A model generated the notes under the pieces. That model was not told where the DNA came from. It was given only the letters and a program-made list of their open reading frames with translations, and made no database searches. Below, in pieces: positions 5,937 through 54,013 of a stretch of 64,000 nucleotides of DNA. The translations under genes and the position numbers were made by a program. The DNA is from Clostridia bacterium (GTDB lineage: Bacteria > Bacillota > Clostridia > Christensenellales > Aristaeellaceae): positions 1 through 64,000 of the forward strand of contig JAFROK010000058.1 of assembly GCA_017429695.1 (NCBI GenBank), written 5' to 3'. Numbering within the stretch: position 1 is the first letter of the stretch; the number at the start of each line of letters is the position of its first letter.

Positions 5937-6527
5937 TTACTTCATAAGGCGGATAAGATGAGCATTCCCAATCTCAAACATCTTGTGGACTATTAATCCG
6001 GCTTGTTCTGCCAGCATCATCGTTCTTTCCGGTGTATCCGGATAAATCCGGATTTTTCTGTTGCCCATATTGATCCATTTGCTCTGGTTTTTGTCAAGTG
6101 ATATACAGAGAAGACCGTTTTTATTCAATAACAAGGCGGCTTTGGCGATCACCTGCTCCTTGTCTTCAAAATGCATCATCGTCAGTGAAGAATAGATCAC
6201 ATCAAACGTTTCTGTAAACGGATATACCATGAAATCATCGCAGATCAGTGTAATATTCGAATAAGCCCGCAGGTTTTCTCTTGCCCGTGCAATGGTCTTT
6301 GGCGATATGTCTATTCCAGTCAGATGTCTGCAGCGTCCGGCTGTTTTTGCCGCAAGTCTTCCTGTCCCCACGCCTATTTCAAGAACCGCTTTGGATTCAT
6401 CCAGTTCCATCATGTCCAGGAATGCTGGCCCATCCCATGATTCCATGTATTTCTGTAAAACCGGCGGATCATGAAACGGATCATTGTTCTCCTCAATGAG
6501 TAAATCATAATGGGTTTTTGTGTCCAT
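5937..6527 (-). CDS. Class I SAM-dependent methyltransferase
   Basis: A 196-residue cytoplasmic enzyme with a Rossmann methyltransferase core. Motif I is VLEIGVGTGRLA at about residues 49-60, the acidic end of strand 2 is GIDISPKTI, and post-motif II is FDVIYSSLTMMHF. It resembles UbiE/Methyltransf_11-type proteins acting on small molecules, but the acceptor cannot be told. GGAGCG sits ahead of the ATG at 6527. It lies just upstream of the decarboxylase remnant on the same strand, which gives no clue to function. Confidence 0.85.
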   Translation of the reverse strand: MDTKTHYDLLIEENNDPFHDPPVLQKYMESWDGPAFLDMMELDESKAVLEIGVGTGRLAAKTAGRCRHLTGIDISPKTIARARENLRAYSNITLICDDFMVYPFTETFDVIYSSLTMMHFEDKEQVIAKAALLLNKNGLLCISLDKNQSKWINMGNRKIRIYPDTPERTMMLAEQAGLIVHKMFEIGNAHLIRLMK

Positions 6528-6669
6528 ATATCATCGCTCCGTCATCCCGTTTTGTTCGGCCAGGCAAGCTTAATGATATCCCTTACGTTTCTGTAAACAG
6601 TTTTTCCAAATGGATCATAACATAGTTCAGAAGGAAAAGGAAGGGGAACAGCGCGTTTCAGATAATTGA

Positions 6670-6705
6670 AAAGGAGTGCCTTTCCTGGTTGAAAAGCACT
6701 CCTTT
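6670..6705 (-). terminator. Terminator of the sigma-factor operon
   Basis: A perfect 10-bp stem (AAAGGAGTGC / GCACTCCTTT) with a 16-nt loop lies 33 bp past the stop of the DUF4097 gene. The minus-strand tail is T-rich but interrupted, so termination may be partial. Confidence 0.6.
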
Positions 6706-6737
6706 GGGGGCGTCCTGAAGCAGCAATGTCAGAAATC

Positions 6738-7682: not shown

Positions 7683-8416
7683 GCTTCTCCTCTTTTCGTC
7701 TTAATCGTATATCCCAGCAGGGCAGCCGCCCCGATACAGGCAACAGCCATCAGGATCGTCACAAACACACTCTTGCTGTGCAGGCTGATCATGTTCATCA
7801 TATTGGCAAACAGGATCATGTCCGCGCTCAGGACCAGAAGCGGCCGGTTGAAATCGCCGATCAGGTTCCGCACCGGCCGGGCCCTGACCACAAACGGCAG
7901 GAAAACCACACCCAGCCCGAACAGCATGCCGGAAGCCGCCGTAAAGAACCACCCGCCGCCGCTGTTGATGGCGCATACCGCCAGCAGCAGCACCAGGCTG
8001 GCGCAGAACGCGCAGAAGGTCCAGAACAGTTTATCCTCCGGCACCATCAGGGGAACCACCGTCAGCGAAGCGGCAACCGCCAGCCCGCCCAGCACGATAA
8101 AGAACCAGCCCAGGCCCGAGCCCGTGGCGATATTCACAATCAGGCACACCAGAATGGGAATCATGAAGATCCCGGCGATCACCGATCCGACCGCCGCGCT
8201 GCGGCGTTTGAACCGCTTCGCCTGGTACTCAATCACTTCGGTCTTTTCACTCTGCAGGTTACTTTCGATTTCATGGGAGCGGAGCTTTTCCAGTTCCGCG
8301 GTGCACTCCGGACATTCCGGAAGATGTTTTTCTATCAGTTCCCGGCTCGCGTCGCTGCAGACGTCGTCAGCATACAGCGGCAGCAGATCCCGGATCACAG
8401 CACATTCCTGATTCAT
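7679..8416 (-). CDS. Anti-sigma factor with zinc-finger (zf-HC2) domain
   Basis: A 245-residue membrane protein. Residues 1-45 form a zf-HC2 anti-sigma domain (CAVIRDLLPLYADD, then HLPECPEC), which holds zinc through His and Cys and binds the sigma factor. After a short linker come about five hydrophobic segments ending near residue 240. The gene overlaps the upstream sigma gene by 4 bp and the downstream DUF4097 gene by 4 bp, so all three are translationally coupled. It most likely keeps the sigma factor inactive at the membrane until an envelope signal arrives. Confidence 0.85.
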   Translation of the reverse strand: MNQECAVIRDLLPLYADDVCSDASRELIEKHLPECPECTAELEKLRSHEIESNLQSEKTEVIEYQAKRFKRRSAAVGSVIAGIFMIPILVCLIVNIATGSGLGWFFIVLGGLAVAASLTVVPLMVPEDKLFWTFCAFCASLVLLLAVCAINSGGGWFFTAASGMLFGLGVVFLPFVVRARPVRNLIGDFNRPLLVLSADMILFANMMNMISLHSKSVFVTILMAVACIGAAALLGYTIKTKRGEA

Positions 8417-36466: not shown

Positions 36467-37543
36467 ATGGGTCAGAAAATGCTCATGAAGGGAAACGAGG
36501 CCATCGCTGAAGCCGCCATCCAGGCCGGATGCCGCTTCTTCTTCGGCTACCCGATTACCCCCCAGAACCAGATTCCCGAATACATGTCCAAGCGGCTGCC
36601 GAAAATCGAGGGCGGCTGTTTCCTGCAGGCGGAGAGCGAAGTTGCCGCCATTAACATGGTCTACGGTGCAGCCGGTGCCGGCGCCCGGGTCATGACCTCT
36701 TCTTCCAGTCCGGGAATTTCCCTGAAGCAGGAAGGCATCAGCTATATCGTCGGCGCCGAACTGCCCTGCGTCATCGTCAATATGGTGCGCGGCGGCCCCG
36801 GCCTCGGTTCCATCCAGCCCGCCCAGAGCGACTATTACCAGTCCACCCGCGGCGGCGGCCATGGCGACTACCGGATGCTCGTGCTGGCTCCCTCCTCCGT
36901 GCAGGAAGCGGTCGAGCTGACGCAGGAAGCCTTCGACCTGGCGGACAAGTACCGCAATCCCGTGCTGGTCATGGGCGACGGACTCATCGGCCAGATGATG
37001 GAACCGGTGGAAATGCCGGAACATAAGGAGAGAACCGACCTGCCTCCCAAGACCTGGGCAGCCACCGGTTGGAAACCCGGCTGCGGCAGGGACCGGGCGG
37101 TCATCAACTCCCTGTATATCGATCCCGCCGTACTGGAAAAGCACGTCAATAAGCTCTACGAAAAGTATGCCGTCATGGAGCAGACCGAATGCCGCTGGCA
37201 GGAGGAAATGACGGATGACGCGGACTATGTGATCGTCGCCTATGGCACCACTGCCCGCATCGCCCGCAGCGCCATGCGCAAGCTTCGCGCCGAAGGCATC
37301 AAGGCCGGCCTGATCCGGCCTATCACCCTGTGGCCCTTCCCGGCCGCCCCGATCGCGAAAGCCGCGGAACACGCGAAAGCTTTCCTGACCGTGGAAATGA
37401 GCATGGGCCAGATGGTGGATGACGTCAAACTGGCTGTCGAAGGCAAAAAGCCGGTTCACTTCTTCGGACGCACCGGCGGCATCGTGCCCACCGTGCGCGA
37501 GATCGTTACCCAGGTTGAAACGCTGGCAAAGGAGGGGAAATAA
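36467..37543 (+). CDS. 2-oxoacid:ferredoxin oxidoreductase, alpha subunit (VorB/KorA type)
   Basis: A 358-residue cytoplasmic subunit of the enzyme that oxidatively decarboxylates a 2-oxoacid to its acyl-CoA while reducing ferredoxin. The N-terminus [20 protein letters not shown] and [12 protein letters not shown] is the pyrimidine-binding domain; [16 protein letters not shown] and [19 protein letters not shown] follow. These phrases fit best the branched-chain (3-methyl-2-oxobutanoate) or 2-oxoglutarate group; the two are hard to separate by eye. Ribosome site AGGAGG; 15 bp after the delta gene. Confidence 0.9.
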
Positions 37544-37545
37544 GC

Positions 37546-38283
<738 letters not shown>

Positions 38284-38286
38284 TCC

Positions 38287-38823
38287 ATGGAAGCTCAATT
38301 TCTGATTGCCGGTTTCGGCGGCCAGGGCGTACTGCTCATCGGGCAGCTGCTGGCCAAGGCAGCCATGCATGAGGGGATGAACGTCTCCTGGATGCCTTCC
38401 TACGGTCCGGAAATGCGCGGTGGCGAAGCGAACTGCGCTGTGGTTATTTCCGATGAGCCCATCGGCTCTCCCCTGGTTACGGAGATCCCGATCGCCGTCA
38501 TCATGAACAAGCCCAGCATGATCAAATTCACCCCCGCCATGGAAAAGGGCGGTATCATGCTGTACAACTCCTCCCTGATCGATATCACCCCGGACCGGGA
38601 CGATATCACCGCAATCCCGGTGGACTGCAACGGCATTGCCGAAGCGTTGGGAAACGCCCGCACGGCCAATATGGTCATGCTTGGCGCGATCATCGCCAAG
38701 ACCGGCGTGATCTCCATTGATTCCGCCATGGAGGCCCTGAAGGTCACCTTCGGGCCCAAGAAGGAGCACCTGCTCCCCATCAACCGCCAGGCGATGGAAA
38801 AAGGCGCAGAGGCGGTCAAATAA
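38287..38823 (+). CDS. 2-oxoacid:ferredoxin oxidoreductase, gamma subunit
   Basis: A 178-residue subunit of the POR gamma family. Its Rossmann-like N-terminus FLIAGFGGQGVLLIGQLLAK is the family signature and binds coenzyme A in characterised relatives; SWMPSYGPEMRGGEANCAV follows near residue 37. It is the last gene of the operon and is followed by a strong terminator. With the other three subunits it completes the heterotetramer. Confidence 0.92.
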   Translation: MEAQFLIAGFGGQGVLLIGQLLAKAAMHEGMNVSWMPSYGPEMRGGEANCAVVISDEPIGSPLVTEIPIAVIMNKPSMIKFTPAMEKGGIMLYNSSLIDITPDRDDITAIPVDCNGIAEALGNARTANMVMLGAIIAKTGVISIDSAMEALKVTFGPKKEHLLPINRQAMEKGAEAVK

Positions 38824-40833: not shown

Positions 40834-42051
40834 TCACTTCACTGCCACAGCAGTAATCGTAAACTTCTTATTCTTATCCGTCACCCGGATTTCCACCGTA
40901 TGTTCCGCAGCCTCCGCTTCATCCAGCGGCAGCACAATCTCGCTCTGATTCCACTTCCCGGGGCCGCCCTTCAGGGTCATCACGACTTTTCCGTCTACCA
41001 GGATCTCCGCCTCGCCGAAGGAGCCCTCTGCGGAAGCCTTCCATGCAATCAGGCACTTGGAGAATGTTCCCGTAATGGTCATCGGCTCTTCCGAATTGCC
41101 GGCTTCATGGAAATAGTTCTTGCCGCATACCCAGCCCACCGGCTTGTTCTTGTAAGTACCGATATCCGTGGAATCAAATCCCCCGCGGTTGATCGTTACC
41201 CCTTCCGGTTCCGTATCGGCATAAAGGGTTTTCAGGCCCATGAAATCCGTTCCATAGGCCGGATCCACATCCAGGTTCACATCCGCCGCGTCCGTTTCCT
41301 TTGCCGCCGCGTCGGCAATTGCCTGCATCAGGCAGTCGCACATAATCCGGTGGCCCGTGGAATTCGGGTGATACTCGTCAAAGAAGAAATCCTTTTTCGT
41401 AATTTCCTTTTCCACGTGGGGATAGATTCCGTCCGGAATAGAAACCATCATCAGGTCGTACACATCACCGATCTTCCGCAGTTCTTCCTGGATGTTCCAT
41501 CCGTCGTCCCGCATGGAAAACAGGATGATCACGGCCGGCTCATTCGGCTGCTGCAGCACTTCCTTCACCATAGATTCGAAGCACCGGTGTCCGCTGGGTT
41601 CTCCCCAGTCGTTCACCGCGAATTCGATCACCACTAGGTCCGGATATCCGTCAGGATCCGTTTCCGGCACCCGGTCAATGATATCCCGTTTGAACCGCAT
41701 CAGGCCGAAGGTGGAAGGTGTTCCGCCGACGCCGGCGTTCACCAGCGACACGTTGCTGCCGTTATCCACGCCGTAGGTATTTCCGAAGCGCACGGCAAAC
41801 CGCCGGGCCCAGCATTCGTCATAATTGGACGCGCCGGCGCCTTCCGTGATGGATCCGCCCATCGTGCCGATGGTGATCTGCTCCCCGGCCTGTGCCTTTT
41901 CAATCACCTTCTTCAGCCGCACGTTGTTGCCGATCCGCATCTCCGCTGCCTTCAGCGCTTCCGGATACCAGTCCTGTTCAAAAAACTCACCCATTGCCGT
42001 CCCTCCCACAATCATCATGCATACCAGCAGGAATGCCGCAAACCGTTTCAT
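40834..42051 (-). CDS. Secreted SGNH/GDSL hydrolase with C-terminal binding domain
   Basis: A 405-residue exported enzyme. A signal peptide (RFAAFLLVCMMIVGGTAMG) precedes the SGNH fold: block I GTMGGSITEGAGASN near residue 65, block III VVIEFAVNDWGE near 145 and the catalytic Asp/His in FDEYHPNSTGHRI near 225. The last 110 residues are beta-rich (GTFSKCLIAWKASAEGSF; VEIRVTDKNKKFTITAV) and look like an extra carbohydrate-binding module. It probably de-esterifies plant cell-wall sugars outside the cell. Ribosome site AGGAGG. It lies past the terminator of the rnf operon and has its own start region. Confidence 0.85.
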   Translation of the reverse strand: MKRFAAFLLVCMMIVGGTAMGEFFEQDWYPEALKAAEMRIGNNVRLKKVIEKAQAGEQITIGTMGGSITEGAGASNYDECWARRFAVRFGNTYGVDNGSNVSLVNAGVGGTPSTFGLMRFKRDIIDRVPETDPDGYPDLVVIEFAVNDWGEPSGHRCFESMVKEVLQQPNEPAVIILFSMRDDGWNIQEELRKIGDVYDLMMVSIPDGIYPHVEKEITKKDFFFDEYHPNSTGHRIMCDCLMQAIADAAAKETDAADVNLDVDPAYGTDFMGLKTLYADTEPEGVTINRGGFDSTDIGTYKNKPVGWVCGKNYFHEAGNSEEPMTITGTFSKCLIAWKASAEGSFGEAEILVDGKVVMTLKGGPGKWNQSEIVLPLDEAEAAEHTVEIRVTDKNKKFTITAVAVK

Positions 42052-42148: not shown

Positions 42149-42178
42149 AAAAAGGAGTCCCCGCATTGCAGAGACTCC
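42149..42178 (-). terminator. Terminator of the rnf operon
   Basis: On the minus strand GGAGTC / GACTCC with a 13-nt loop is followed by TTTTTC, about 70 bp beyond the stop of the FAD protein gene. Confidence 0.7.
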
Positions 42179-42248
42179 CTTTCTGTCTGAAAAAAATTCA
42201 GTTGATTTTTACCAGGATTTTGTTTACTGCTACTGCAACCGCAGCGGA

Positions 42249-44015
42249 TTATTTTGCTACGCCGCCCAGTTCGCTGATCGCAGTTTCCGCCGCAATCCGG
42301 CCGAAGATTACGATATCCGCCACCGCGTTGCCGCCCAGACGGTTGCCGCCGTGCACACCGCCGGTGACTTCGCCCGCTGCATACAGTCCGGGAATGGCGT
42401 TTCCTTCGGTATTGATCACATGGGCCGATGTATCAATCTTCACGCCGCCCATGGTATGATGGATACCGGGAGCAATCTTGATGGCGTAGTACGGCGGGGT
42501 CGTCAGGTCCGCATCCATACCCGTGGTACGGCCGAATTCCGGATCATTCTGGTTCTTGACGCACTCATTCCAGTCCGCCAGGGTCTTTGCCAGCGTCGCC
42601 GGATCGATATTCAGCTGTTCCGCCAGTCCTTCAATGGTGTCCGCCTGAACCGTGATACCGGTCTTGACGTACTTCTCAATCGCCTTCAGGTGATCCCGCA
42701 GGTTCTGGTCAAAGATGATATAGGCATAGCAGCCTTCCTGTTCCAGTTCTGCCGCGGATACCGCGTCGCGGGTCAGCAGTTCATTGGTGAAGCGCACGCC
42801 GCTCTGGTTCACCAGGATCGCGCCGTCACCGCGGACAGATTCGGTAATCAGCATGGAAGTCGTCTGTTCCACTGTGGGATGCAGCTGGATCTGCTCAATA
42901 TCCACCAGCGCCGCGCCCAGCGCCTGGGCCATTACGATACCGTCTCCTGTTGCGCCGGGAGCGTTCGTAGTCACAGTGCCCTTCAGGTCCGGCCGGTACT
43001 GGGTGTACATTTCCTCGTTGGCGCCAAATCCGCCAGTCGTCAGAATGACCGCTTTGCAGTTGAATGTATAGTTGGCATCCGGGCCTTCCGCCTTCACGCC
43101 GCAGATCTTCCCGTCCGCGTCTGTCAGCAGTTCCGTCGCTTTGGTTTCATACATGATTTCCACGCCCAGTTCATTCAGCTTGGAGCTGAATTTTTCCACC
43201 AGGTATTCGCCCACGCCGGAACCGTCCGCCGGGGCATGGATCCGGTTCACGGAAGCGCCGCCGGAGAAGGAGATCTTCGGCAGGTCCGCACCGATGGAAT
43301 CCAGCCAGTCAATCGCGCCGGCGGATTCGCTGGCCATGACCCGCACCAGTTCCGGATCATTCAGGTCGTGGCCGCCCTTGATGGTGTCCGCAACAAACAG
43401 ATCGACGGAGTCCTCGATCCCCTGTTCCTTCTGGTAATGGGTTTCTGCAGCATTCATACCGCCGGTGGCCTTGGTGGTATTGCCGCCTGCGTAGGGCATT
43501 TTCTCCAGCAGCACGAAGTCCTTCCCCGCCTGCTTCAGCATGATCGAAGCAGCCATGCCGGCACCACCGGCGCCGATTACCACGATCTCGGTATCAATGG
43601 TTTTGTCTTCCTTTTCGCCCTTATCCCCGGTATCCCGGCGATTCGCGTCCAGCACGGCAATGTCTGCGCCAGCCGCCTGCAGTGCTTCCGTCGCTGCCGC
43701 TTTGATGGCAGTGCTGGATACGGTGGCGCCGCTGATCGCGTCCACATTCGGCGTCTGCGCAGCCATGATGGCGGCGGACAGCTTCCCGGCAGCCATGCCA
43801 CCCAGTGCTTCCGTTTCTCCGTTGGCGTCAATCAGCACACCGGTAATCTCATTCTCATCCACAGTAACCCATACTTTGATCGTGCTCAGCAAACCCTGGG
43901 CCTCCGCCTCATAGGTGCCGGGGGTAAATGTCGCTGCCGGTACAGCCTCCGCCAGTGCGGAAACAGCAAACAGCATCATCACCAGGGTCATCAGCAGGCA
44001 AAATAGTTTTTTCAT
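42249..44015 (-). CDS. Exported FMN/FAD reductase of the flavocytochrome c / fumarate reductase type
   Basis: A 588-residue exported protein. A signal peptide (CLLMTLVMMLFAVSALA) is followed by an FMN_bind domain at about residues 32-115 with the flavinylation motif SGATVS at 95-100. The FAD domain begins VIGAGGAGMAASIML at about 146, with HAPADGSGVGEYLV, QLHPTVEQT, SVRGDGAILVNQSGVRFTNE and the C-terminal GLYAAGEVTGGVHGGNRLGG. Relatives reduce fumarate, urocanate or other enoates outside the cytoplasm, receiving electrons through the covalent FMN. No haem motif is present. It lies 43 bp after the FMN-repeat gene and closes the rnf operon, so Rnf-linked flavins are the likely electron source. 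Confidence 0.9.
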   Translation of the reverse strand: MKKLFCLLMTLVMMLFAVSALAEAVPAATFTPGTYEAEAQGLLSTIKVWVTVDENEITGVLIDANGETEALGGMAAGKLSAAIMAAQTPNVDAISGATVSSTAIKAAATEALQAAGADIAVLDANRRDTGDKGEKEDKTIDTEIVVIGAGGAGMAASIMLKQAGKDFVLLEKMPYAGGNTTKATGGMNAAETHYQKEQGIEDSVDLFVADTIKGGHDLNDPELVRVMASESAGAIDWLDSIGADLPKISFSGGASVNRIHAPADGSGVGEYLVEKFSSKLNELGVEIMYETKATELLTDADGKICGVKAEGPDANYTFNCKAVILTTGGFGANEEMYTQYRPDLKGTVTTNAPGATGDGIVMAQALGAALVDIEQIQLHPTVEQTTSMLITESVRGDGAILVNQSGVRFTNELLTRDAVSAAELEQEGCYAYIIFDQNLRDHLKAIEKYVKTGITVQADTIEGLAEQLNIDPATLAKTLADWNECVKNQNDPEFGRTTGMDADLTTPPYYAIKIAPGIHHTMGGVKIDTSAHVINTEGNAIPGLYAAGEVTGGVHGGNRLGGNAVADIVIFGRIAAETAISELGGVAK

Positions 44016-44058
44016 GGTACCCCTCCTTCAATTATTTTGTCGCGTTCCTTGAGTATGC

Positions 44059-46395
44059 TTACTTGATTTTTTCCAATACTTCATTCACCGCGTCCACGAC
44101 TTCTTTGGAAGAAAGTTTCAGTGTGGCACCGGTGATAGCATCCGTTTCGGCTGTTCCGTTTTCGACAATAGCTTTTGCCCACTCCGTTTTGATTTCATCC
44201 GTCAGGAAATCACTGTTTTCGCTTTTTCCCTCTGATGTAATGCGGCAGCCTGTAATTTTTCCATCCTTGGTATCGATATAAACCCGGATGATGCTATAGT
44301 CGGTTTCTTTCTTCACCATGAAGCTGCCATACAGTCCCTGAACGGATTCCGCCGGTTCCTCAGCTTTCGGTTCCTCTTTGGGTTCTTCCTGCGGCCCTTC
44401 CGCTGGCGCGGGCGTGCTGGCCTTCGCCAGGATCTCGTTCACCGCCTCGGTCACCGCCGCCGCGGAGAGTTTCTTGGTCGCGCCGGTAATCACATCCGTC
44501 TCGGCCGTTCCGCTCTCCACGATTGCTTTGGCCCATTCATCCTTGATCTCGTTCGTCAGGAAATCGTTGCCTTCGCTCTTGCCTTCAGAGGTAATCTTAC
44601 AGCTCGTAATCTTACCGTCTTTGGTATCCGCGTATACCCGGATAATGCTGAAGTCCGTTTCTTTTTCCACCATGAAACTGCCATACAGTCCCTGGACAGA
44701 TTCCGCCGGTTCCTCAGCCTTCGGCTCCTCTTTGGGCTCTTCCTTCGGCTCTTCCTGCGGTTCTTCCTTCGTCGCTTCTGTCGTCGCAGGCGCGCCGGCC
44801 TTCGCCAGGATCTCGTTCACCGCGTCGGTCACCGCCGCCGCTGAGAATTTCTTGGTCGCGCTCGTAATGACGTCCGTTTCGGCCGTTCCGCTCTCCACGA
44901 TCGCCTTGGCCCATTCGTCCTTGATCTCGTCCGTCAGGAAATCGCTGCCTTCGCTCTTACCTTCGGAGGTAATCTTACAGTTCGTAATCTTGCCGTCTTT
45001 GGTATCCGCGTATACCCGGATAATGCTGAAGTCCGTTTCCTTTTCCACCATGAAGCTGCCATACAGTCCCTGGGCGGATTCCGCCGGTTCCTCAGCCTTC
45101 GGTTCCTCTTTAGGCTCTTCCGTCGGTTCTTCCTGCGTTTCGTCCTTCGGCGCTTCTGTCGTCGCGGGCGTGCCGGCCTTCGCCAGGATCTCGTTCACCG
45201 CGTCTGTCACTGCCGCCGCGGAGAGTTTCTTGGTCGCACTCGTGATGACGTCCGTTTCGGCCGTCCCGCTTTCCACGATCGCCTTGGCCCATTCGTCTTT
45301 GATTTCGTCCGTCAGGAAATCGCTGCCTTCGCTCTTACCTTCGGAGGTAATTTTGCATTTCGTAATCTTACCGTCTTTGGTATCCGCGTATACCCGGATA
45401 ATGCTGAAGTCCGTTTCTTTTTCCACCATGAAACTGCCGTACAGTCCCTGGGCGGATTCCTCCGGTTCTTCTGTCTTCGGAGCTTCGGCATGCGTATCCT
45501 GAGTGTCCCCTGCGGGTTCCTGGTCCTTTTCCAGCGGAATGATCTGAATGTTGTCAATTTTGCCGCTCTTTGCATAAACGATCACATCCGAAAGGCCCAG
45601 CTGGGTTTCCTGCCGGGTGATATACCCGCCGTAGAGAACCTTGGCTGCCGCTTTCTTTTCTTCTTCAGCGGGTTTGCTGATCTGGCCCTGGATATCCTTG
45701 ACCGCGTCAATGACCGCTTTCGATGAGAAAGCCAGCGTTGCGCCGGTAATGACATCCGTTTCAGCCGTTCCGTTTTCAACAATCGCCTTCGCCCATTCGC
45801 TCCGGATCTCGTCCGTCAGGAAGTCTTTGCTGTCGGGTTTGTCTTCCGATTCAATCAGGCAGTCCGTGATCTTTCCGTCTGCCGCGTCGGCATACACCCG
45901 GATGATGCTGAAGTTGGTTTCCTGTTCAGACTTGTACGCATATTCTTCGGGCGCTTTGGCCGCTTCCGCTGTTTCAGATGCTGCGGGTTCTTCCGTTTTC
46001 TTTTCTGTCACACCGTACAGCGAATTCAGGCCTCTCAGCACTGCCTCTGAGGTAACCGTCGCGCCGGAAATAGCCTCGATGTCGTCCGTGCCGTAGGCAA
46101 AGGGACCTTCCTTGTCCAGGAACTGGCCGATAAATTCGTCTTCGGAGGCTTTCTTTCCAAGGCCTTCCGTTTCATTCGGCGTGTCAATGACGATCTTCCG
46201 GATGATATTGCCTTCCCTGGAAACATGGAGCGTTACGTCGCCGCCAAAACCCTTCTCGGTCACGTCCGTCGTTTCCGTCCGGTTAAAGGTCAGGTTTTTC
46301 CCGCCGATAACGCCCGCAACCAGCAGCACGATGGCAATCACAACCAATGCACAGATGATGAGCCGGAGCCATTGCTTTTTCTCAAAGTAATCCAT
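44059..46395 (-). CDS. Membrane-anchored protein with tandem FMN_bind-like domains
   Basis: A 778-residue protein anchored by one N-terminal helix (RLIICALVVIAIVLLVAGVI), with the rest outside. Unit 1 (about residues 48-128) is a normal RnfG-like FMN_bind domain with motif SGATVT at 110-115. Unit 2 (152-240) has TGATLAFSS; a truncated unit lies at 254-290. Then come four near-identical units at 317-442, 443-568, 569-686 and 687-778, each GLYGSFMVxKETDxSIIRVY ... GTAETDxIT(S/G)AT, joined by Glu/Pro/Lys-rich linkers. The later units lack Ser/Thr at the position normally flavinylated, so only unit 1 is surely modified by ApbE. It lies 13 bp after rnfB. A multi-flavin or spacer role between Rnf and the exported reductase is inferred. 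Confidence 0.85.
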   Translation of the reverse strand: MDYFEKKQWLRLIICALVVIAIVLLVAGVIGGKNLTFNRTETTDVTEKGFGGDVTLHVSREGNIIRKIVIDTPNETEGLGKKASEDEFIGQFLDKEGPFAYGTDDIEAISGATVTSEAVLRGLNSLYGVTEKKTEEPAASETAEAAKAPEEYAYKSEQETNFSIIRVYADAADGKITDCLIESEDKPDSKDFLTDEIRSEWAKAIVENGTAETDVITGATLAFSSKAVIDAVKDIQGQISKPAEEEKKAAAKVLYGGYITRQETQLGLSDVIVYAKSGKIDNIQIIPLEKDQEPAGDTQDTHAEAPKTEEPEESAQGLYGSFMVEKETDFSIIRVYADTKDGKITKCKITSEGKSEGSDFLTDEIKDEWAKAIVESGTAETDVITSATKKLSAAAVTDAVNEILAKAGTPATTEAPKDETQEEPTEEPKEEPKAEEPAESAQGLYGSFMVEKETDFSIIRVYADTKDGKITNCKITSEGKSEGSDFLTDEIKDEWAKAIVESGTAETDVITSATKKFSAAAVTDAVNEILAKAGAPATTEATKEEPQEEPKEEPKEEPKAEEPAESVQGLYGSFMVEKETDFSIIRVYADTKDGKITSCKITSEGKSEGNDFLTNEIKDEWAKAIVESGTAETDVITGATKKLSAAAVTEAVNEILAKASTPAPAEGPQEEPKEEPKAEEPAESVQGLYGSFMVKKETDYSIIRVYIDTKDGKITGCRITSEGKSENSDFLTDEIKTEWAKAIVENGTAETDAITGATLKLSSKEVVDAVNEVLEKIK
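44062..45447 (-). repeat. Tandem DNA repeat inside the FMN_bind-like gene, about 378 bp units
   Basis: Units at 45070-45447 and 44692-45069 are each 378 bp, 44338-44691 is 354 bp with a shorter linker, and 44062-44337 is the final 276-bp unit without linker. The first three are nearly identical at DNA level, pointing to recent expansion by recombination. Confidence 0.9.
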
Positions 46396-46408
46396 CGTCC
46401 GCCCCTCC

Positions 46409-47203
46409 TTAAACTGCCTTCGTGGTGATAACCTTCACCGGGCATTTCGCGGCGCACTTGCCGCACAGGGTACACTTCTCCGGGTTCACCCGGGCCAGCG
46501 TACTGTCAAATTCAATCGCTTCAGATTCGCACTGTTTTGCGCACAGGCCGCAGCCGATGCAGCCGGCTGTGCAGACTTTCTTGACCAGCGGTCCCTTGTC
46601 CCGGTTCGAGCACTGCACCCGGATGATCCGGCTTTCCGGAATCAGGGAGATCAGTCCCCTGGGGCAGGCCTTGACGCACAGCCCGCAGCTGACACAGCGG
46701 TTCCGGTTGACCACCGCCACGCCGTTCTTCACGGAGATCGCCTGCTGGGGGCACACCTCCGCACAGGACCCGAATCCGAGGCAGCCGTAGTTGCAGTCGG
46801 TCACGTTGATGCCGCTGAGCACCGCCGCGCGGCAGTCCTTTTCGCCGATATAGTTGCCCTGGTTTTTCGTCACGTCACAGGTGCCCTTACAGGCTACAAA
46901 TGCAACCTTCCGTTCCAGCGCATCCGCCCGGGTACCCATGATATCGCCGATGGCCTCCGCCGAAGCGGCGCCGCCCACCGGGCAGGCATTCACCGGCGCT
47001 TCGCCTTTGGCGATCGCCGCGGCCAGCGCGTCGCATCCGGCGTATCCGCAGGCGCCGCAGTTGTTGCCCGGCAGTTTTTCGCGCACGGCCACTTCCCGCT
47101 CGTCAATTTTCACAGCGAACTTCTTGCTGGTGTATACCAGGCCGATACTTACGATGATGCCAATCGCAATGAAGACCAGCGTCGTTACCAGAATAATATC
47201 CAT
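46409..47203 (-). CDS. rnfB: Rnf complex subunit B (iron-sulfur, ferredoxin-accepting)
   Basis: A 264-residue subunit that accepts electrons from reduced ferredoxin on the cytoplasmic face. It has an N-terminal membrane helix (TTLVFIAIGIIVSIGLVYT), the four-Cys domain NNCGACGYAGCDALAAAI near residues 47-65 with a later NACPVGG, and ferredoxin-type clusters including CVSCGLCVKACP, CIGCGLCAKQC and CTLCGKCAAKCP towards the C-terminus. The cluster-rich C-terminus is typical of Clostridial RnfB. It is 16 bp downstream of rnfA, ribosome site GGGAGG. Confidence 0.95.
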   Translation of the reverse strand: MDIILVTTLVFIAIGIIVSIGLVYTSKKFAVKIDEREVAVREKLPGNNCGACGYAGCDALAAAIAKGEAPVNACPVGGAASAEAIGDIMGTRADALERKVAFVACKGTCDVTKNQGNYIGEKDCRAAVLSGINVTDCNYGCLGFGSCAEVCPQQAISVKNGVAVVNRNRCVSCGLCVKACPRGLISLIPESRIIRVQCSNRDKGPLVKKVCTAGCIGCGLCAKQCESEAIEFDSTLARVNPEKCTLCGKCAAKCPVKVITTKAV

Positions 47204-47219
47204 TTCACGGCGCCTCCCT

Positions 47220-47798
47220 TCACTTCAGCCCGCCGAAGCCCATAAACGCAATGGACATCAGCGCGGCCGCAATCATCACGATCGGAGCGCCCCGCAGGGG
47301 CTTGGGAAGATCTTTTTCATTGATCCGGGAACGAATTCCCGCCAGCAGGATGATGGCGATGGTATAGCCGACCGCCGTGCCGAAACCGCTGGCCACACTC
47401 TGGATGAAGTTGTATCCGTCCTCCACGTTGTTCAGCGCCACGCCGAGCACCGCGCAGTTGGTGGTAATCAGGGGCAGGTAGATACCCAGCGCCTGGTATA
47501 CCGCGGGAGAATTCTTCTTCAGGAACATTTCAACGATCTGCACCAGCGCGGCGATCACCAGGATGAAAACGATGGTTTTCATGAAATCCATGCCCAGCGG
47601 TTTCAGCACCAGGTCATACAGCAGGCTGGCCACCGCGGAAGCGATGGTGATAACGAAGATGACCGCGCAACCAAGGCTGGCGGACGCCTTCATCTGTTTG
47701 GAGACGCCCAGGAAGGAGCAGATGCCCAGGAACTGGTTCAGCACCACGTTGCTGATCAGGGCGCTGCCCACAATGATCATGATCAGGCTCGTATTCAC
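47220..47798 (-). CDS. rnfA: Rnf complex subunit A
   Basis: A 192-residue membrane subunit with six helices, homologous to NqrE and RnfE. Family phrases are VLNQFLGICSFLGVSKQMKASASLG near the N-terminus and LPLITTNCAVLGVALNN near residue 110, which contains the conserved Cys thought to hold an iron-sulfur centre together with RnfE. It starts at a GTG whose TGA overlap with the end of rnfE gives a 4-bp coupling. Confidence 0.95.
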   Translation of the reverse strand: MNTSLIMIIVGSALISNVVLNQFLGICSFLGVSKQMKASASLGCAVIFVITIASAVASLLYDLVLKPLGMDFMKTIVFILVIAALVQIVEMFLKKNSPAVYQALGIYLPLITTNCAVLGVALNNVEDGYNFIQSVASGFGTAVGYTIAIILLAGIRSRINEKDLPKPLRGAPIVMIAAALMSIAFMGFGGLK

Positions 47799-48526
47799 TT
47801 CGCCTCGCCTCCTTTCTCAGGGGCTGCGGCTTTCTCTGCCGGTTTCTCCGTCTGCTGTTCCTCCGTCCTGTTCTCACAGGCCGTGGCACACAGCGCGCAG
47901 TTGCCGTCGCATCCGCTTTCTACCAGCTGGCGCTGGCGGGTCTTGATGCCGATAGCGTTCATCACCGCAATGATCAGCGCAAAGACCAGGAAGGCGCCGG
48001 GCGCTTTGCCGAAAATGGCAATGCTCCAGCTTTCCGGCAGGATCCTTAATCCGAAGATGGTTCCCGCGCCGAGGAGTTCCCGGATGGAGGCCGCCAGCGT
48101 CAGGGCGATCGTGAAGCCGAGGCCCATGCCGATGCCGTCCATCACGGCCAGGCCGGGCGTATGCTTGTTGGCATATGCTTCCGCCCGTCCCAGGATAATG
48201 CAGTTCACAACGATCAGGGGAATATACACGCCCAGCGATTCGGATACGCCCGGGGCATATGCCTTGATCAGCAGTTCCGTCACCGTCACCAGGCTGGCCA
48301 CGATCACGATGTATGCGGGCAGGCGAACCTGGTCCGGAATCGCTTTCCGCAGCAGGCTGATGATCAGGTTGCTGAACACCAGTACCGCCAGCGTGCTCAG
48401 GCCCATGCCGATACCGTTCATCGCTTCGGTGGAAACCGCCAGCGCCGGGCACATGCCCAGCATCAGCACCAGCACCGGGTTTTCTTTAACCAGTCCGTTC
48501 CAGAGGCGTTCCAAGTATTTCTTCAT
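47795..48526 (-). CDS. rnfE: Rnf complex subunit E with Cys-rich tail
   Basis: A 243-residue membrane subunit with six helices. The start NGLVKENPVLVLMLGMCPALAVS and the later YIPLIVVNCIILGRAEAYA are the RnfE/NqrD signatures. After the last helix the protein has a cytoplasmic or peripheral tail with CDGNCALCATAC near residue 208 followed by a Glu/Lys/Ala-rich end; four closely spaced Cys suggest a metal or cluster site. It lies 1 bp after the rnfDG stop. Confidence 0.95.
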   Translation of the reverse strand: MKKYLERLWNGLVKENPVLVLMLGMCPALAVSTEAMNGIGMGLSTLAVLVFSNLIISLLRKAIPDQVRLPAYIVIVASLVTVTELLIKAYAPGVSESLGVYIPLIVVNCIILGRAEAYANKHTPGLAVMDGIGMGLGFTIALTLAASIRELLGAGTIFGLRILPESWSIAIFGKAPGAFLVFALIIAVMNAIGIKTRQRQLVESGCDGNCALCATACENRTEEQQTEKPAEKAAAPEKGGEAK

Positions 48527-48527
48527 C

Positions 48528-50048
48528 TCAGTTGCCTCCCTTCATTACGGAGTCGAAGAACTTCAGTCCGGCATTGACGCCGTTGACAACCGCTGTGGAG
48601 GTCACCGTTGCGCCGGAAATTGCGCTGATATCCTCGCCCAGCTTCAGGGTGCCGCCCTTGCCGTTAAACTGATCCTTGAATCCGTCTTCATCCGCCTTCA
48701 TGCCCAGGCCCTTGGTTTCATTCAGCTCGGTAAAGGCGATCTTCTGGATCTTTCCGTCCGCCGTCAGGCCCAGCGTCATGACCAGTTTTCCGCCGAAGCC
48801 CTTGGTCTGGATGCTCATGGCATATCCGGTAACCTCGCCGGCAGCGGATTTGCCAACATAGAATTCGTTGATTCTCGGGGAAGCCTTTTCGCTCTGTGCG
48901 GCGATCATATCCTCCGCGGCCTGCACGGTTTCGAATTCCTCGGTTCCCGGGCAGACTTCCATATAGGCTTCCGTCTTCTTCTGCAGTTCGTTCTTTTCAA
49001 TGGTCGGTTTGGTCATCTTGTATACGCCGCTCAGGGCCACAGCAGCAATCGCCGCGATAATGCCCAGGGCGATCACCGGCTTCGGAATCCGGAAGGGCTC
49101 TTTCTTGACCGGGCGGGTCCTGCCGATCTTCCGATAGGCCAGCGGCTTCTGGACGATGTAGGTATCGATCAGGGGCGTGCATACGTTGCCGATGACGATG
49201 GCGTAGCTGAAGGAGTCCGCCGTATCGCCGTACAGGCGGAAGATGCCGCCCAGCACACCGATCAGGCAGCCGTAGATGAACTGGCCCAGCCGGCTCACAG
49301 GACTGGTCACATAGTCCGTCGCCATGAAGAAGGCGCCCATCACCACGCCGCCGCCGCACAGGTGCGCCAGCAGGAAGTTGATATCAAACCCGTGTCCGCC
49401 GAACAGGGCGATAAACAGGGTGAACCCGCCCAGCACGGAAAAGCAGATCTGGCCGTGGATAATATCCATGCTCCACAGGATCAGGCCGCCGATCAGCAGT
49501 GCCAGCACAGAGCTGCCGATCACGCCGTCCGCGGTGCCCAGGAACATCTTCGTGATATCCACCGTTTCATAGGCCCGCAGGGCGCCCATCGGCGTCGCAC
49601 CGGAAACTGTGTCCAGGATCGGCTTGATGCTCATGGCCTCCGCGAAGGAGATCAGCAGGAAGCAGCGGCCGGCCAGCGCCGGGTTGATGAAGTTCTTGCC
49701 AAGGCCGCCGAAGCAGCACTTGACAATCGCAATGGCAAATACGGAACCGAGCACCGGCAGGTAGAGCGGCGTCCTCGGTCCGAGGGAAAGGCCCAGCAGG
49801 AGGCCGGTCACGGCCGCGCTGCCGTCCCAGATCGTGCTGGGTTTGCGGACGATCTTGCAGAACACCCATTCCGTCAGCACCGCGGAAGCGACTGCCAGCG
49901 CCACGATGGCGGCAGCCTGCCACCCGTAGGAGATGATACCGACGATCGTCGCGGGCATCAGGCTCAGCAGCACCACCCGCATGATATACGGTGTCGTCCA
50001 TTTGTCCCTTACATGGGGCGAGGAGGAGATATTCAGCACTTCGCTCAT
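48528..50048 (-). CDS. rnfDG: Fused Rnf complex subunits D and G
   Basis: A 506-residue protein that joins two subunits usually made separately. Residues 1-315 are RnfD, with about nine helices and the covalent-FMN motif TVSGATPMGALRAYE near residue 155. A linker of about 25 basic residues (RTRPVKKEPFRIPKP) leads into RnfG at about 340-506: one membrane helix (VIALGIIAAIAAVALSGVY), the phrase GFGGKLVMTLGLTADGKI, NETKGLGMKADEDGFKDQF, and the second FMN motif ISGATVTSTAVVNGVN near 480. Both FMN sites look intact, requiring ApbE, which is not in this window. It overlaps rnfC by 4 bp. Confidence 0.93.
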   Translation of the reverse strand: MSEVLNISSSPHVRDKWTTPYIMRVVLLSLMPATIVGIISYGWQAAAIVALAVASAVLTEWVFCKIVRKPSTIWDGSAAVTGLLLGLSLGPRTPLYLPVLGSVFAIAIVKCCFGGLGKNFINPALAGRCFLLISFAEAMSIKPILDTVSGATPMGALRAYETVDITKMFLGTADGVIGSSVLALLIGGLILWSMDIIHGQICFSVLGGFTLFIALFGGHGFDINFLLAHLCGGGVVMGAFFMATDYVTSPVSRLGQFIYGCLIGVLGGIFRLYGDTADSFSYAIVIGNVCTPLIDTYIVQKPLAYRKIGRTRPVKKEPFRIPKPVIALGIIAAIAAVALSGVYKMTKPTIEKNELQKKTEAYMEVCPGTEEFETVQAAEDMIAAQSEKASPRINEFYVGKSAAGEVTGYAMSIQTKGFGGKLVMTLGLTADGKIQKIAFTELNETKGLGMKADEDGFKDQFNGKGGTLKLGEDISAISGATVTSTAVVNGVNAGLKFFDSVMKGGN

Positions 50049-51394
50049 TTCTTTCCGCCCCCTTCCTGCTTTTTCTTGGCTGTAATTTCAGCCTTGGCCT
50101 GTTTGAACGCCTGCATCAGCGGCCGCTTAGCCGGGCAGGCAAATGTGCAGCTGCCGCACTGGATGCATTCCAGCCCGAACAGCTTTTTCTCATAGCGTTC
50201 CAGATCCCCCATGAAGGCAGCGTCCGCCATCAGCTGGGGCATCAGGCCTACCGGGCAAACCGTGGTGCAGCGGCCGCAGTGCAGGCACGCGGTCATCAGC
50301 TTGTCCGCCTCTTCCACCGGGTCTTCCGCCAGCAGTGTCAGCGCGTTATTCTGCTTCTGGACCGGCACGTCCAGGCTGCCCATCGCGACGCCCATCATCG
50401 GGCCGCCGCAAAGCGCCTTCACGGCTTTCACGCCTTCCTTCACGCCGCCGCATTCCGCCAGCAGTTCCGCATAGTTGGTGCCGACCCGGACAAAGAAGTT
50501 GGCCGGCTCCTTCACCGCTTCCCCGCTCAGGGTGAAGCACTGACTGAACAGCGGTTCACGGTACAGCACCGCCCGCTGGATCGCGTACAGCGTTCCCACG
50601 TTCTGCACGATGCATCCCGCATCCGCCGGCAGCTGGGTAATCGGGAAATCGATTCCCGTCACCGCCTGGATCAGGCTGCGCTCACCGCCCTGCGGATACT
50701 TGGTGATCATGGCCTGCACCTTCATCCGGGGCTTGTTGGAAACGGCGATTTCCATCGCATGAATCGCTTCGGGCTTGTTGTCCTCGATGCAGATCACGCC
50801 CTCCGCGTTCGGAAACAGGCGCAGCACCAGTTCCAGGCCTTCCACGATTTCGTTGGAATGCGTCCGCATCAGCTGGTCGTTGCAGGTGATGTACGGCTCA
50901 CATTCCGCGCCGTTGGCGATAATGTAGTTGATTGCCTCCGGATTTTTCGGTTTTAGCTTGACATGGGTCGGGAATCCCGCGCCGCCCAGGCCGACAATGC
51001 CGGCATCCTGAACCCGCTGATGGATCTCGTCATCCGACAGCTTCGCCTCGTTGTCCTTCTCGCTGAAATCAGCAATCTGGGTAAACTGGCCGTCGTTGTC
51101 GATTACGATGCAGTCCGCCATGCCGCCACCCAGCACCCGGCGCTTTTCAATGTTCTTTACCGCGCCGGAGCAGCTTGCGTAGATATGGGCAGACACGAAC
51201 CCGTCCGCTTCAGCGATCTTCTGGCCGACGAGCACCTGGTCCCCTTTCTGAACGATTGGCTTCGCCGGTTTCCCGATGTGCTGCTGAAGCGGGAAAACCA
51301 TTTCTCCCTTCGGATTGAACAGGCGCAGCCGCGCTTCCCGGCTCAGCTCTTTACGCTCATCCGGGTGTACGCCGCCGCGAAAAGTATTTCTCAC
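50045..51394 (-). CDS. rnfC: Rnf complex subunit C (NADH/FMN/iron-sulfur)
   Basis: A 449-residue peripheral cytoplasmic subunit that exchanges electrons with NAD. The N-terminus GGVHPDERKELSRE is typical of RnfC; the FMN/NADH site is GIVGLGGAGFPTHVKL near residue 137 with ANGAECEPYITCNDQLM following, and two 4Fe-4S motifs are CLHCGRCTTVCPVGLMP near 372 and CIQCGSCTFACPAKRP near 412. It starts at a GTG with AAAGGGG upstream and is the first gene of the operon C-DG-E-A-B. Confidence 0.95.
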   Translation of the reverse strand: MRNTFRGGVHPDERKELSREARLRLFNPKGEMVFPLQQHIGKPAKPIVQKGDQVLVGQKIAEADGFVSAHIYASCSGAVKNIEKRRVLGGGMADCIVIDNDGQFTQIADFSEKDNEAKLSDDEIHQRVQDAGIVGLGGAGFPTHVKLKPKNPEAINYIIANGAECEPYITCNDQLMRTHSNEIVEGLELVLRLFPNAEGVICIEDNKPEAIHAMEIAVSNKPRMKVQAMITKYPQGGERSLIQAVTGIDFPITQLPADAGCIVQNVGTLYAIQRAVLYREPLFSQCFTLSGEAVKEPANFFVRVGTNYAELLAECGGVKEGVKAVKALCGGPMMGVAMGSLDVPVQKQNNALTLLAEDPVEEADKLMTACLHCGRCTTVCPVGLMPQLMADAAFMGDLERYEKKLFGLECIQCGSCTFACPAKRPLMQAFKQAKAEITAKKKQEGGGKK

Positions 51395-51462
51395 TGCGCC
51401 CCGACCCCTTTCTGTTTTTCATGCGGAATATGTTTTTTATCCGCGCTTTTTTCCTATTTATT

Positions 51463-51491
51463 ATTGTACCAGAGCCCACGCTGAAAGTAAA
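51463..51491 (-). promoter_or_regulatory. Promoter of the rnf operon
   Basis: On the minus strand TTTACT (51486-51491) and TACAAT (51463-51468) are 17 bp apart with a TG just before the -10. The site lies about 70 bp ahead of rnfC. Confidence 0.7.
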
Positions 51492-52019: not shown

Positions 52020-53915
52020 TTACCGTCCTGCTTTCCGCTCCGTCTTGATCTCGTACATCAGCTTGTCCGCTTCCTTGATACACTGATCCATTGATTTTTT
52101 GTCCTTTTTCGTCGCCCGGACGGTGCCGATGGAAAAACCAAGGGTGAACGGCATACCGGATTCTTCATTATATTCTTCCGCTTCTGCCAGAATCCGGTCT
52201 GCCAGGTCCTCTTCATCGATTTCCGCAATCACGACAAACTCATCGCCGCCATACCGCATGATGAAATCCTCCGGACCGCAGCATTCCGTCAGGATCGCCG
52301 CCGACGCCTTCAGCGCTTCGTCACCCAGGTTGTGGCCGTACTGATCGTTGATTGTCTTCATATCGTCCATATCGGTAAACAGTACCTGCACGCCGCCGTC
52401 CCGCTCCAACAGCCAGTTGAAAACCTCCTGTCCGAAGCGGTTCAGGCCGAAGCGGTTGTAAAGGCCTGTCAGGCTGTCATGCACATACAGTTCGTCCAGC
52501 GTTTCGTTGAACTGGCGTAGCAGTTCCTTTTTCCGCACGTTTTCAATTGCAATTTCCAGGAAGTTGAATATGCTTTCATGCAGATTCAGCTTCGCCGCGT
52601 CGCTGATGCCGTCCAGCGCGATATACCCGATGGAGTATGTATTGTAATGAAGCGGATAGAATATCAGGAACCTTTCATTCCGCATCATTTCCTTCGGCAG
52701 CAGGTTTTTCGTCGGAAAGCGGACAAAGTCCGTTCCTTTATCCGCCGGATTGCCGGTCTTGCGCCGGATCGCCAGCACCATTTCCTCTCCGAAGTTTTCT
52801 GAATCCTGCAGCCACTCGCTCTTTTCGAAATTGTCAAAATAATAGTCGTTGATGCACAGGAAAATATCCTGGCAGCCGAAAATCTGCCGGTTCTGGCTCA
52901 CCGTCTCCGCCAGGTCCACCAGGTTGTTGGCTTCGAAAAGGTCTTCCGCCATCCGGTCCTGTAAGTTATAAAACGTCTTCAGGAAACGGGACTGCTGGAA
53001 GAACTGTTCCCGGACCTCTCGGATCTTGGCTTCTTCACGGCAACCGCAGGATTCCGAGCAGATTACCGCGTGCTCAAAGGGAATATCCGCGTTAAAGTCT
53101 TCACCGTTGATTTTCCGGAGCAACAGGTCCATGGCATCGTAATTCAGCTTCCAGTTATTTCCCCATGCGGTGGAAAGCCGTGGGCTGGAAAGCTGTGCGC
53201 TGGACAGGTTATCAAACCCGGTGATAATGACATCATGCGGAATCCGGACGCCGCCAGCCCGGAGCGTTTCCATGAGTCCCAGTGCCATATCGTCATTTGC
53301 GCAGATAAAGGCATCCGGCAGTTCCCGTTCCTCCGCCAGCCATTTCCGGGCCACATTCTCGCCGTCACCCGGCCGCCAGGTGCATTCGATAATTTCAATA
53401 TCCTTTTCCGAAACACCGTTTTCCCGGCAGGCGTCCAGGAATCCGTCCAGCCGCTGCTGGGCTTCCGGACAGTCGTTATGCAGGTTTCCGGTCAGGTATA
53501 CATATTTCTTCGCGTGATGCGCCTTGATCACATGCTCAGCCATATCGTGCTGCGCTGCATGGTTGTCGATGTGAATCAGCGTGCATCCGTCCATCGGGCA
53601 GCCGATGCTGACAGCCGGCACGCCGCTCGCCTCGATTTTCCGGCCCAGTTCTTCCCGCACGCGCTGAAGTACAATCTGGTTGCCCTGCACCAGCAGTCCG
53701 TCAAACTGTGTCAGGTCCGGCAGGTTGAAAATCGCATATTCGCTTTTGTCCTTGGCATTGTCCAGGTCCTTGCCGAAGCAGTCAAAAATGGAGAGCCGGA
53801 CATTCGGATGGTCATCCACAAACTGTTTCAACCCATGCAAAGTACTTTCGACCAGTTCGTAATTCCAGTCGACCGTAAAAAAGGCAATGCGGTATGAACG
53901 GTTCTGGGATGCCAT
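52020..53915 (-). CDS. Diguanylate cyclase with cytoplasmic LacI-type sugar-binding sensor domain
   Basis: A 631-residue soluble protein. Residues 1-290 form a periplasmic-binding-protein-like fold as in LacI regulators (YRIAFFTVDWNYELVEST; DAFICANDDMALGLME; VIITGFDNLSSAQL) but without the DNA-binding headpiece. The middle (about 300-465) looks like a GAF-type helical/beta linker with IEIAIENVRKKELLRQFNE. The C-terminal GGDEF domain has HDSLTGLYNRFGLNR, TDMDDMKTINDQYGHNLGD and the active motif MRYGGDEFVVIAE; it should make cyclic di-GMP. It is transcribed away from a sugar ABC transporter whose binding protein has a related fold, so it may report the same sugar. Start at 53915 after GAGGGG. 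Confidence 0.9.
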   Translation of the reverse strand: MASQNRSYRIAFFTVDWNYELVESTLHGLKQFVDDHPNVRLSIFDCFGKDLDNAKDKSEYAIFNLPDLTQFDGLLVQGNQIVLQRVREELGRKIEASGVPAVSIGCPMDGCTLIHIDNHAAQHDMAEHVIKAHHAKKYVYLTGNLHNDCPEAQQRLDGFLDACRENGVSEKDIEIIECTWRPGDGENVARKWLAEERELPDAFICANDDMALGLMETLRAGGVRIPHDVIITGFDNLSSAQLSSPRLSTAWGNNWKLNYDAMDLLLRKINGEDFNADIPFEHAVICSESCGCREEAKIREVREQFFQQSRFLKTFYNLQDRMAEDLFEANNLVDLAETVSQNRQIFGCQDIFLCINDYYFDNFEKSEWLQDSENFGEEMVLAIRRKTGNPADKGTDFVRFPTKNLLPKEMMRNERFLIFYPLHYNTYSIGYIALDGISDAAKLNLHESIFNFLEIAIENVRKKELLRQFNETLDELYVHDSLTGLYNRFGLNRFGQEVFNWLLERDGGVQVLFTDMDDMKTINDQYGHNLGDEALKASAAILTECCGPEDFIMRYGGDEFVVIAEIDEEDLADRILAEAEEYNEESGMPFTLGFSIGTVRATKKDKKSMDQCIKEADKLMYEIKTERKAGR

Positions 53916-54013
53916 AGAAGCCCCTCTCTCATGGAACAGGATATATCCGGCCAATCTTTCAATATTCTATGTCATGCACGGCAAAAAGTCAACCGTTCAG
54001 AAATCTTTGATTT

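Follow-up and report, generated by a model that had tools for sequence, protein, structure and literature searches.

Rnf is normally read as a closed loop between ferredoxin and NAD. A Clostridia genome of the family Aristaeellaceae (GenBank assembly GCA_017429695.1) raises the question of whether that loop can open outward: in positions 1 to 64,000 of its contig JAFROK010000058.1, the stretch of 64,000 nucleotides that we call the window, a complete set of rnf genes runs directly into a gene for a protein with repeated flavin mononucleotide (FMN)-binding domains, hereafter the multi-FMN protein, and a gene for a reductase with domains for FMN and flavin adenine dinucleotide (FAD). Our answer is that the operon probably makes Rnf an outward electron exit, in which FMN domains would pass electrons to an external fumarate-like acceptor, and that it is a heme-free derivative of a module pairing Rnf with the ammonia-forming nitrite reductase NrfA.

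All seven genes of the row lie on the minus strand between 42.2 and 51.4 kb, in the order rnfC, fused rnfD-G, rnfE, rnfA, rnfB, multi-FMN protein and FMN/FAD reductase, and their coordinates place them at distances running from 4-bp overlaps up to 43 bp. A preliminary description of the locus had given this order with gaps of no more than 43 bp, and both coordinates and family matches bear it out; what it wrote as DG is indeed both subunits, joined in a single fused protein. Rnf subunits C, D, G, E, A, and B are thus all present and intact. Five of the subunits, RnfC, RnfD (TIGR01946, 231 bits), RnfE, RnfA, and RnfB, score above their TIGR cut-offs, and the RnfG part reaches 86.9 bits, under the TIGR01947 cut-off of 102; the fusion also matches FMN_bind. 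Both Rnf parts carry a flavinylation motif, and the RnfD consensus of 12 sequences, the window included, reads S-S-A-T at the flavinylation site. The organism also has an apbE gene away from the operon (contig C6, 3239-4060; 288 bits).

The multi-FMN protein is, by its sequence, a relative of RnfG: its best PDB match is the RnfG chain 7zc6_G. By eye it starts with a membrane helix; an FMN_bind domain of RnfG type and five shorter repeats follow, with half an FMN domain, which the preliminary description had missed, visible by eye at about residues 250-290 between the first and second short repeats. The helix would place the protein outside the cytosol. Its six motifs read SGAT at residue 110, TGAT at 217, TSAT at 385 and 511, and TGAT at 637 and 755, so that four of the six sites fit the flavinylation motif D-x-x-[S/T]-G-A-[S/T] and two read TSAT. 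The claim of a membrane-anchored protein with repeated FMN_bind-like domains therefore holds, given the PF04205 match, the six motifs, and the helix. Since a change of the motif glycine to alanine in a Klebsiella enzyme left about 50% flavinylation (PMC12052999), the two TSAT sites may be partly loaded with FMN. Three of the repeats are encoded by a 378-bp tandem array in which two adjacent copies have 93% DNA identity; copies so nearly identical make the repeat number uncertain, and it may be wrong if the assembly was built from short reads. Multi-FMN proteins have been purified, with two single domains solved (PMC10339131), and a 2024 follow-up to the eLife 2021 paper discussed below models them as beads on a string (PMC11334425).

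The 588-residue reductase joins an FMN_bind domain (SGAT at residue 95) to FAD_binding_2 (292 bits), and its score exceeds two NCBIfam cut-offs for flavocytochrome c. Residues 139-579 align to the flavocytochrome c3 (Fcc3) fumarate reductase 1d4c at 441 bits, and the match to the urocanate reductase (UrdA) structure 6t85 is weaker, at 324 bits. At the active site, H379, E392, R395, R416, H520, and R559 align to Fcc3 His365, Glu378, Arg381, Arg402, His504, and Arg544. We take His504 and Arg544 to be catalytic positions in Fcc3 numbering; the catalytic roles of the other four are published (PMC10882135). The pairing of FMN_bind and PF00890 with the Fcc3 catalytic residues is that of a predicted flavinylated fumarate reductase-like enzyme. 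Placed through the Fcc3 alignment, UrdA Tyr373, Ala387, and Asp388 correspond to H379, E392, and S393, and none of the three UrdA residues is kept. Because the Fcc3 catalytic residues are kept and those of UrdA are not, the acceptor is more likely fumarate-like than urocanate, which we judge unlikely; of the fumarate/urocanate type first proposed, only the fumarate half stands.

A probable origin of this operon emerges when its relatives are considered. Two overlapping sets were compared (G228/L186, G250/L192, G240/L212, and G260/L173, for example, are shared): a draw of 150 genomes of the family, labelled G, with the window genome as G000, and loci that were read, labelled L, among which the named loci are the 80 best matches, of at least 597, to the RnfD-G alignment. 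Names such as Lachnospiraceae or Spirochaetales on these loci are depositors' metagenome labels, and open reading frames (ORFs) were chosen by codon usage, scored after training on 15 genes of the window. Six of the 80 lack rnfB and six have less than 3 kb after it, leaving 68 resolvable loci. NrfA follows rnfB at 58 of the 68, all but one of these (57/58) with ResB and/or CcsA, and at 56 of the 58 the most heme-rich ORF has exactly four CxxCH and one CxxCK; the PDB relatives of one such protein, from L133, are NrfA structures (3ubr, 1gu6). An FMN match lies downstream near NrfA at 11 of the 58, of which ten are multi-FMN loci and one (L214) owes it to the FMN domain of a reductase. Multi-FMN domains follow rnfB at 12 named loci, with NrfA also present at ten, and wherever the ORFs were read (L125, L126, L128-L132, L158, L162, L218) FMN domains and NrfA form one protein.

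The same pairing holds across the family draw. Fused RnfD-G (E ≤1e-120) occurs in 22 of the 150 genomes and NrfA (PF02335) in 32; NrfA is present in 19 of the 22 with the fusion versus 13 of the 128 others (Fisher p = 7e-13, uncorrected for kinship). Among the 19, NrfA is downstream on the same contig in 15 and upstream on the same contig in G213, contigs break in G165 and G167, and the NrfA contig of G207 begins with rnfA-rnfB (L251). Three genomes have the fusion and lack NrfA: G181, G240, and that of the window. The 13 unlinked NrfA proteins are 41-50% identical to the Rnf-type query. At their loci (L237-L249) resB lies beside NrfA, as does ccsA in 12 of 13, and the stretches fetched contain no rnf; the sequence of L246 stops short of any ccsA, and one flank of L242 covers just 2.5 kb. 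A tree was built from 47 NrfA domains, 35 of them from hand-picked linked loci (L250 and L252 contig-broken) and 12 from unlinked ones (L238 was left out, its ORF not being picked). In it the 12 unlinked domains come out monophyletic, and 34 of the 35 linked domains cluster with one another; the exception, L253 from G213, has a different gene order and falls on the unlinked side when the tree is midpoint-rooted. By sequence, then, L237-L249 represent a second, diverged NrfA type in 13 genomes of the family. The NrfH/NapC family matched none of the 150 genomes, with a positive Escherichia coli control (E. coli-type NrfBCD was not searched), so NrfA in these organisms needs another donor. A phylum search of 398 genomes found no Rnf-type NrfA at E 1e-80, in a set that holds no known positive and shows little.

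Two single proteins combine FMN_bind, FAD_binding_2, and NrfA: L124:5764-8688 (974 residues), one gene after rnfB, and L205:13703-16624 (973 residues), directly after rnfB in a lineage different from that of the window; each chain thereby holds two terminal reductases. FMN_bind/FAD reductases with N-termini resembling twin-arginine translocation (Tat) signals, by eye, also lie beside rnf at L138:11910-16431, L214:13669-17138, and L226:2098-8542, with Tat translocase genes there as well (TatC by Pfam in L138 only, by eye in L214 and L226). L138 further carries a CcsA gene, the L214 reductase is followed by NrfA, and upstream of rnfC at L226 lies an FMN protein with six motifs.

The window shares the layout of the module: fused RnfD-G, the order C-DG-E-A-B, and a protein with FMN domains behind rnfB, which some of the relatives have too. 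The nearest genome found, G233 (locus L124), carries rnfC-DG-E-A-B, a heme-free multi-FMN protein with four motifs, a reductase-NrfA fusion, resB, and ccsA; the reductase part is 86% identical to the window reductase and shares one 974-residue frame with NrfA. In the DNA alignment, window 44331-42280 corresponds to L124 8995-6950 and window 42052-40836 to L124 3850-2631, and between these blocks about 230 bp in the window replace 3.1 kb of L124 that hold NrfA, resB, and ccsA. The NrfA, ResB, and cytochrome c assembly families have no match at the locus or in the organism's 88%-complete genome, and CxxCH occurs in none of the window ORFs picked by script; on these grounds a cytochrome in the window is rejected. 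As NrfA fused to the reductase and resB-ccsA are present in G233 and all three are absent here, the window operon is best described, from its sequence, as a heme-free derivative of the Rnf-NrfA module, and we infer loss of NrfA, ResB, and CcsA rather than never having had them. Such loss appears to have happened more than once. NrfA is missing and FMN domains are kept in the window, L157, and L160 (where the reductase is one gene further on). When five Rnf proteins were concatenated for a tree of 16 loci, the window and L124 split from the rest at 100/100, and L157 and L160 group with L158 and L162 (91/82, inner order unresolved); a larger Rnf tree used 85 of 95 loci, ten being dropped for missing subunits. 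Because the two groups fall apart, parsimony suggests that NrfA was lost at least twice. Directly after the reductase stop codon lies a possible remnant helix, the best match outside the multi-FMN protein among 2216 six-frame segments of the window; its domain E values of 0.023 (one-sequence profile) and 0.29 (13-sequence profile) are weak, so we keep it only as a hint.

By superimposing these genes on what Rnf does, we can propose a route. RnfB/RnfC would take in electrons from ferredoxin or NADH and hand them on to the RnfD and RnfG flavins at the outer face, from which part of the electrons would leave through the FMN domains of the anchored protein instead of returning to NAD. From the multi-FMN protein they would pass to the FMN domain and then the FAD of the secreted reductase, which would reduce an unsaturated dicarboxylate-like acceptor, most likely fumarate. 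The module rnfC-DG-E-A-B-(FMN)NrfA-resB-ccsA, which occurs in numerous Clostridia of rumen and gut, would feed nitrite ammonification through the same exit; the window lineage would have lost NrfA, ResB, and CcsA and retained the FMN domains and the reductase. Flavinylation, electron direction, and acceptor are what we infer from the genes. The earlier claim that Rnf is extended outward by the flavin domains of the last two proteins gains support from the kinship with RnfG, from the FMN-domain proteins that follow rnfB in genera g1 and g106 of the family draw, and from G233. In a check of other genomes for the seven-gene order, proposed in the preliminary description, the order recurs in G233, where the reductase is extended by NrfA, and the commonest partner after rnfB is NrfA with resB/ccsA.

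Several observations weigh against this reading. In a genome 88% complete, the lack of matches to NrfA, ResB, and CcsA outside the locus falls short of proof. The two TSAT sites among the six motifs are G-to-S changes, whereas the published variant is G-to-A. NrfA does not follow rnfB at 10 of the 68 resolvable loci, and eight of these ten also lack FMN domains there, L226 and L231 among them having FMN matches upstream of rnfC instead. The tie between reductase and Rnf is also loose: 11 other genomes of the family have a 69-86% identical, near full-length reductase, and seven of them lack fused RnfD-G (no match at E 1e-60 or, in G258, a match to the RnfD part only; the G236 fragment was left out). 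In G097 and G274, two genomes of one genus, the reductase lies 28-29 kb from an FMN-NrfA gene. The reductase as a conserved Rnf partner is accordingly rejected, as the two are linked only in some members of the genus; on sequence grounds it is a variable member of the module.

The looseness of that tie is what keeps alive the strongest alternative, which we nonetheless consider unlikely: that another membrane flavoprotein or a soluble reductant feeds the reductase and that its position after rnf is local and non-functional. The seven genomes without the fusion and the distant genes of G097 and G274 agree with such a donor, as does a second FMN-motif protein near apbE (described below). Yet the reductase lies on the same strand as the multi-FMN protein gene across a 43-bp gap in which no terminator-like site is listed, it is adjacent in G233 and one gene further in L160, and in G233 it is fused to NrfA within the same gene row. 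A shade less likely still is that the multi-FMN protein itself ends the chain, delivering to iron, quinone-like shuttles, or another soluble acceptor, with the reductase secondary. Such delivery has already been proposed for flavin-based extracellular electron transfer, the number of FMN domains varies, the protein persists without NrfA, and L157 has no reductase match in the following 6.6 kb; against it, NrfA follows or is fused in 10 of the 12 named loci whose rnfB is followed by multi-FMN domains. Least credible is an outward branch left as a relic after NrfA loss, with a decaying multi-FMN protein and Rnf working as an ordinary ferredoxin:NAD pump, for although two motifs have changed to TSAT, a half domain and a possible remnant helix are present, and this protein has the highest nonsynonymous to synonymous substitution ratio (dN/dS) of the seven versus G233 (0.28, on a rough repeat alignment, with rnf genes at 0.11-0.19), that value is well below 1, the 778-residue frame is intact, the repeats are amplified and not lost, and the reductase is strongly constrained (0.11).

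We return to Rnf as an outward exit and to its organization in the window (Table 1). Between 40.6 and 54.2 kb, scans gave 11 promoter-like sites, an excess of under 2 sd over the 6.9 (sd 2.2) of shuffled sequence, and 15 terminator-like sites versus 14.9; with scans so near shuffle level, co-transcription of the seven genes from a single promoter to a single terminator is no more than plausible. The earlier description of one promoter and one terminator keeps a candidate site at each end, with region scans that barely differ from shuffles. The terminator hairpin was found by folding and is absent from the list of the automatic scanner.

Table 1. Coordinates of the operon and its flanking signals in the window
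Feature	Position	Strand	Basis
Candidate sigma-70-like promoter, TTTACT-N17-TACAAT, TG before second hexamer	51463..51491	-	consensus only
rnfC	50045..51394	-	TIGR01945, 491 bits
rnfD-rnfG fusion, 506 aa	48528..50048	-	Pfam/NCBIfam; motifs SGAT@149 (RnfD part), SGAT@478 (RnfG part)
rnfE	47795..48526	-	Pfam/NCBIfam
rnfA	47220..47798	-	Pfam/NCBIfam
rnfB, iron-sulfur subunit	46409..47203	-	Pfam/NCBIfam
Multi-FMN protein, 778 aa	44059..46395	-	FMN_bind PF04205, 110 bits; flavinylation-type motifs
378-bp tandem array encoding repeats of the multi-FMN protein	44381..45480	no strand	2.9 copies (3.6 over 44139-45480)
FMN_bind + FAD_binding_2 reductase, 588 aa	42249..44015	-	flavocytochrome c / fumarate reductase family; signal-peptide-like N-terminus (by eye)
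Possible 16-codon remnant of FMN-domain C-terminal helix	42201..42248	-	weak profile match, directly after reductase stop codon
Putative intrinsic terminator, hairpin + T run	42149..42183	-	-23.5 kcal/mol by folding

Some neighbouring genes recur with the module. Genes for a 2-oxoacid:ferredoxin oxidoreductase, a possible source of reduced ferredoxin, lie near the operon at 36467-38823, and genes with the same N-termini lie near rnf in L124, L126, L128, L157, and L160. Upstream of rnfC, 52020-53954 encodes a protein with periplasmic-binding-like and GGDEF domains, and upstream genes with similar N-termini occur in L124, L125, L160, and L162. A GDSL/SGNH hydrolase gene (40834-42051) adjoins the operon, with 73% DNA identity in G233 and, by eye, counterparts in L157 and L160. 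On contig C6 of the window genome (L029:2428-8042), a small membrane-protein-like gene lies upstream of apbE, and about 1.4 kb beyond apbE (5550-8042) is a second exported-looking protein of 830 residues with two FMN motifs, 32% identical to the window reductase over 421 residues.

Taken together, the loci suggest that Rnf is able to feed exchangeable external respiratory enzymes. Whether this extends to rumen and gut Clostridia at large, with Rnf as a respiratory exit whose end enzymes are interchangeable, FMN wires leading to NrfA, to FAD reductases, or to both in one chain, and the window as a case in which the heme enzyme was dropped and the all-flavin branch kept, we regard as evenly balanced; this wider reading would include Rnf-driven nitrite ammonification without NrfH and perhaps without quinone. 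If true, Rnf would directly supply electrons to external respiration in anaerobes possibly devoid of quinones, and the swap of heme and flavin modules would serve as a natural experiment on the evolution of electron wires. Methanogenesis in the rumen competes for reductant with nitrite and fumarate, so the identity of nitrite ammonifiers and of their donor is of practical interest.

Among known systems, the flavin-based one of Listeria comprises PplA, Ndh2, and EetAB, with electrons entering via Ndh2/EetAB. Electron entry differs in the window, where it would be through Rnf, with possible ion pumping. The two are alike in a multi-FMN carrier with an exported FMN/FAD fumarate reductase, FrdA in Listeria (eLife 2021, PMC8238504). 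That paper, by Meheust et al., describes multi-flavinylated RnfG clusters, a Christensenellales subset of them with a multi-heme domain, and proposes a bifurcated electron path; like the window, these clusters combine Rnf, a multi-FMN protein, and a proposed second path to external acceptors (PMC8238504). An Rnf route to an external acceptor, as the preliminary description put it, agrees with the outward extension by the last two proteins and is an idea already in print. The word NrfA occurs nowhere in the whole paper, and the text at hand, without the gene lists of its supplement, mentions neither resB/ccsA, an FAD reductase in the Rnf operon, nor any loss of the heme domain (PMC8238504); the 2024 follow-up on multi-FMN proteins likewise has no occurrence of the word (PMC11334425). 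No paper linking Rnf and NrfA in an operon was among the matches listed, judged by titles and abstract starts, with subscription papers and preprints scarcely covered. Within the literature surveyed, multi-flavinylated Rnf clusters with proposed external acceptors are thus known already, and the Rnf-NrfA operon and its flavin-only variant appear to be new. In Methanosarcina acetivorans the gene for a multiheme cytochrome, MmcA, is reported to be cotranscribed with Rnf genes, and its product is proposed to take electrons outward from it (Holmes et al. 2019, PMC6703419); this organism is an archaeon, and the seven-heme MmcA, neither NrfA nor a flavoenzyme, is itself the proposed terminal reductase of anthraquinone-2,6-disulfonate (AQDS) (PMC6703419). 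The NrfHA and NrfABCD systems of ammonification resemble the window's relatives in an NrfA with CxxCK and four CxxCH and in System II maturation genes (PMC12285233). They differ in that the NrfH family is absent from all 150 genomes of the family draw and NrfA itself from the window, and the 2025 NrfA review, which in the text at hand names the NrfH and NrfABCD systems, contains the word Rnf zero times (PMC12285233). Flavocytochrome c3 (1d4c, 1qjd), finally, has the same catalytic domain and active-site residues as the window reductase; where it has a heme domain, the window reductase has an FMN_bind domain in its place.

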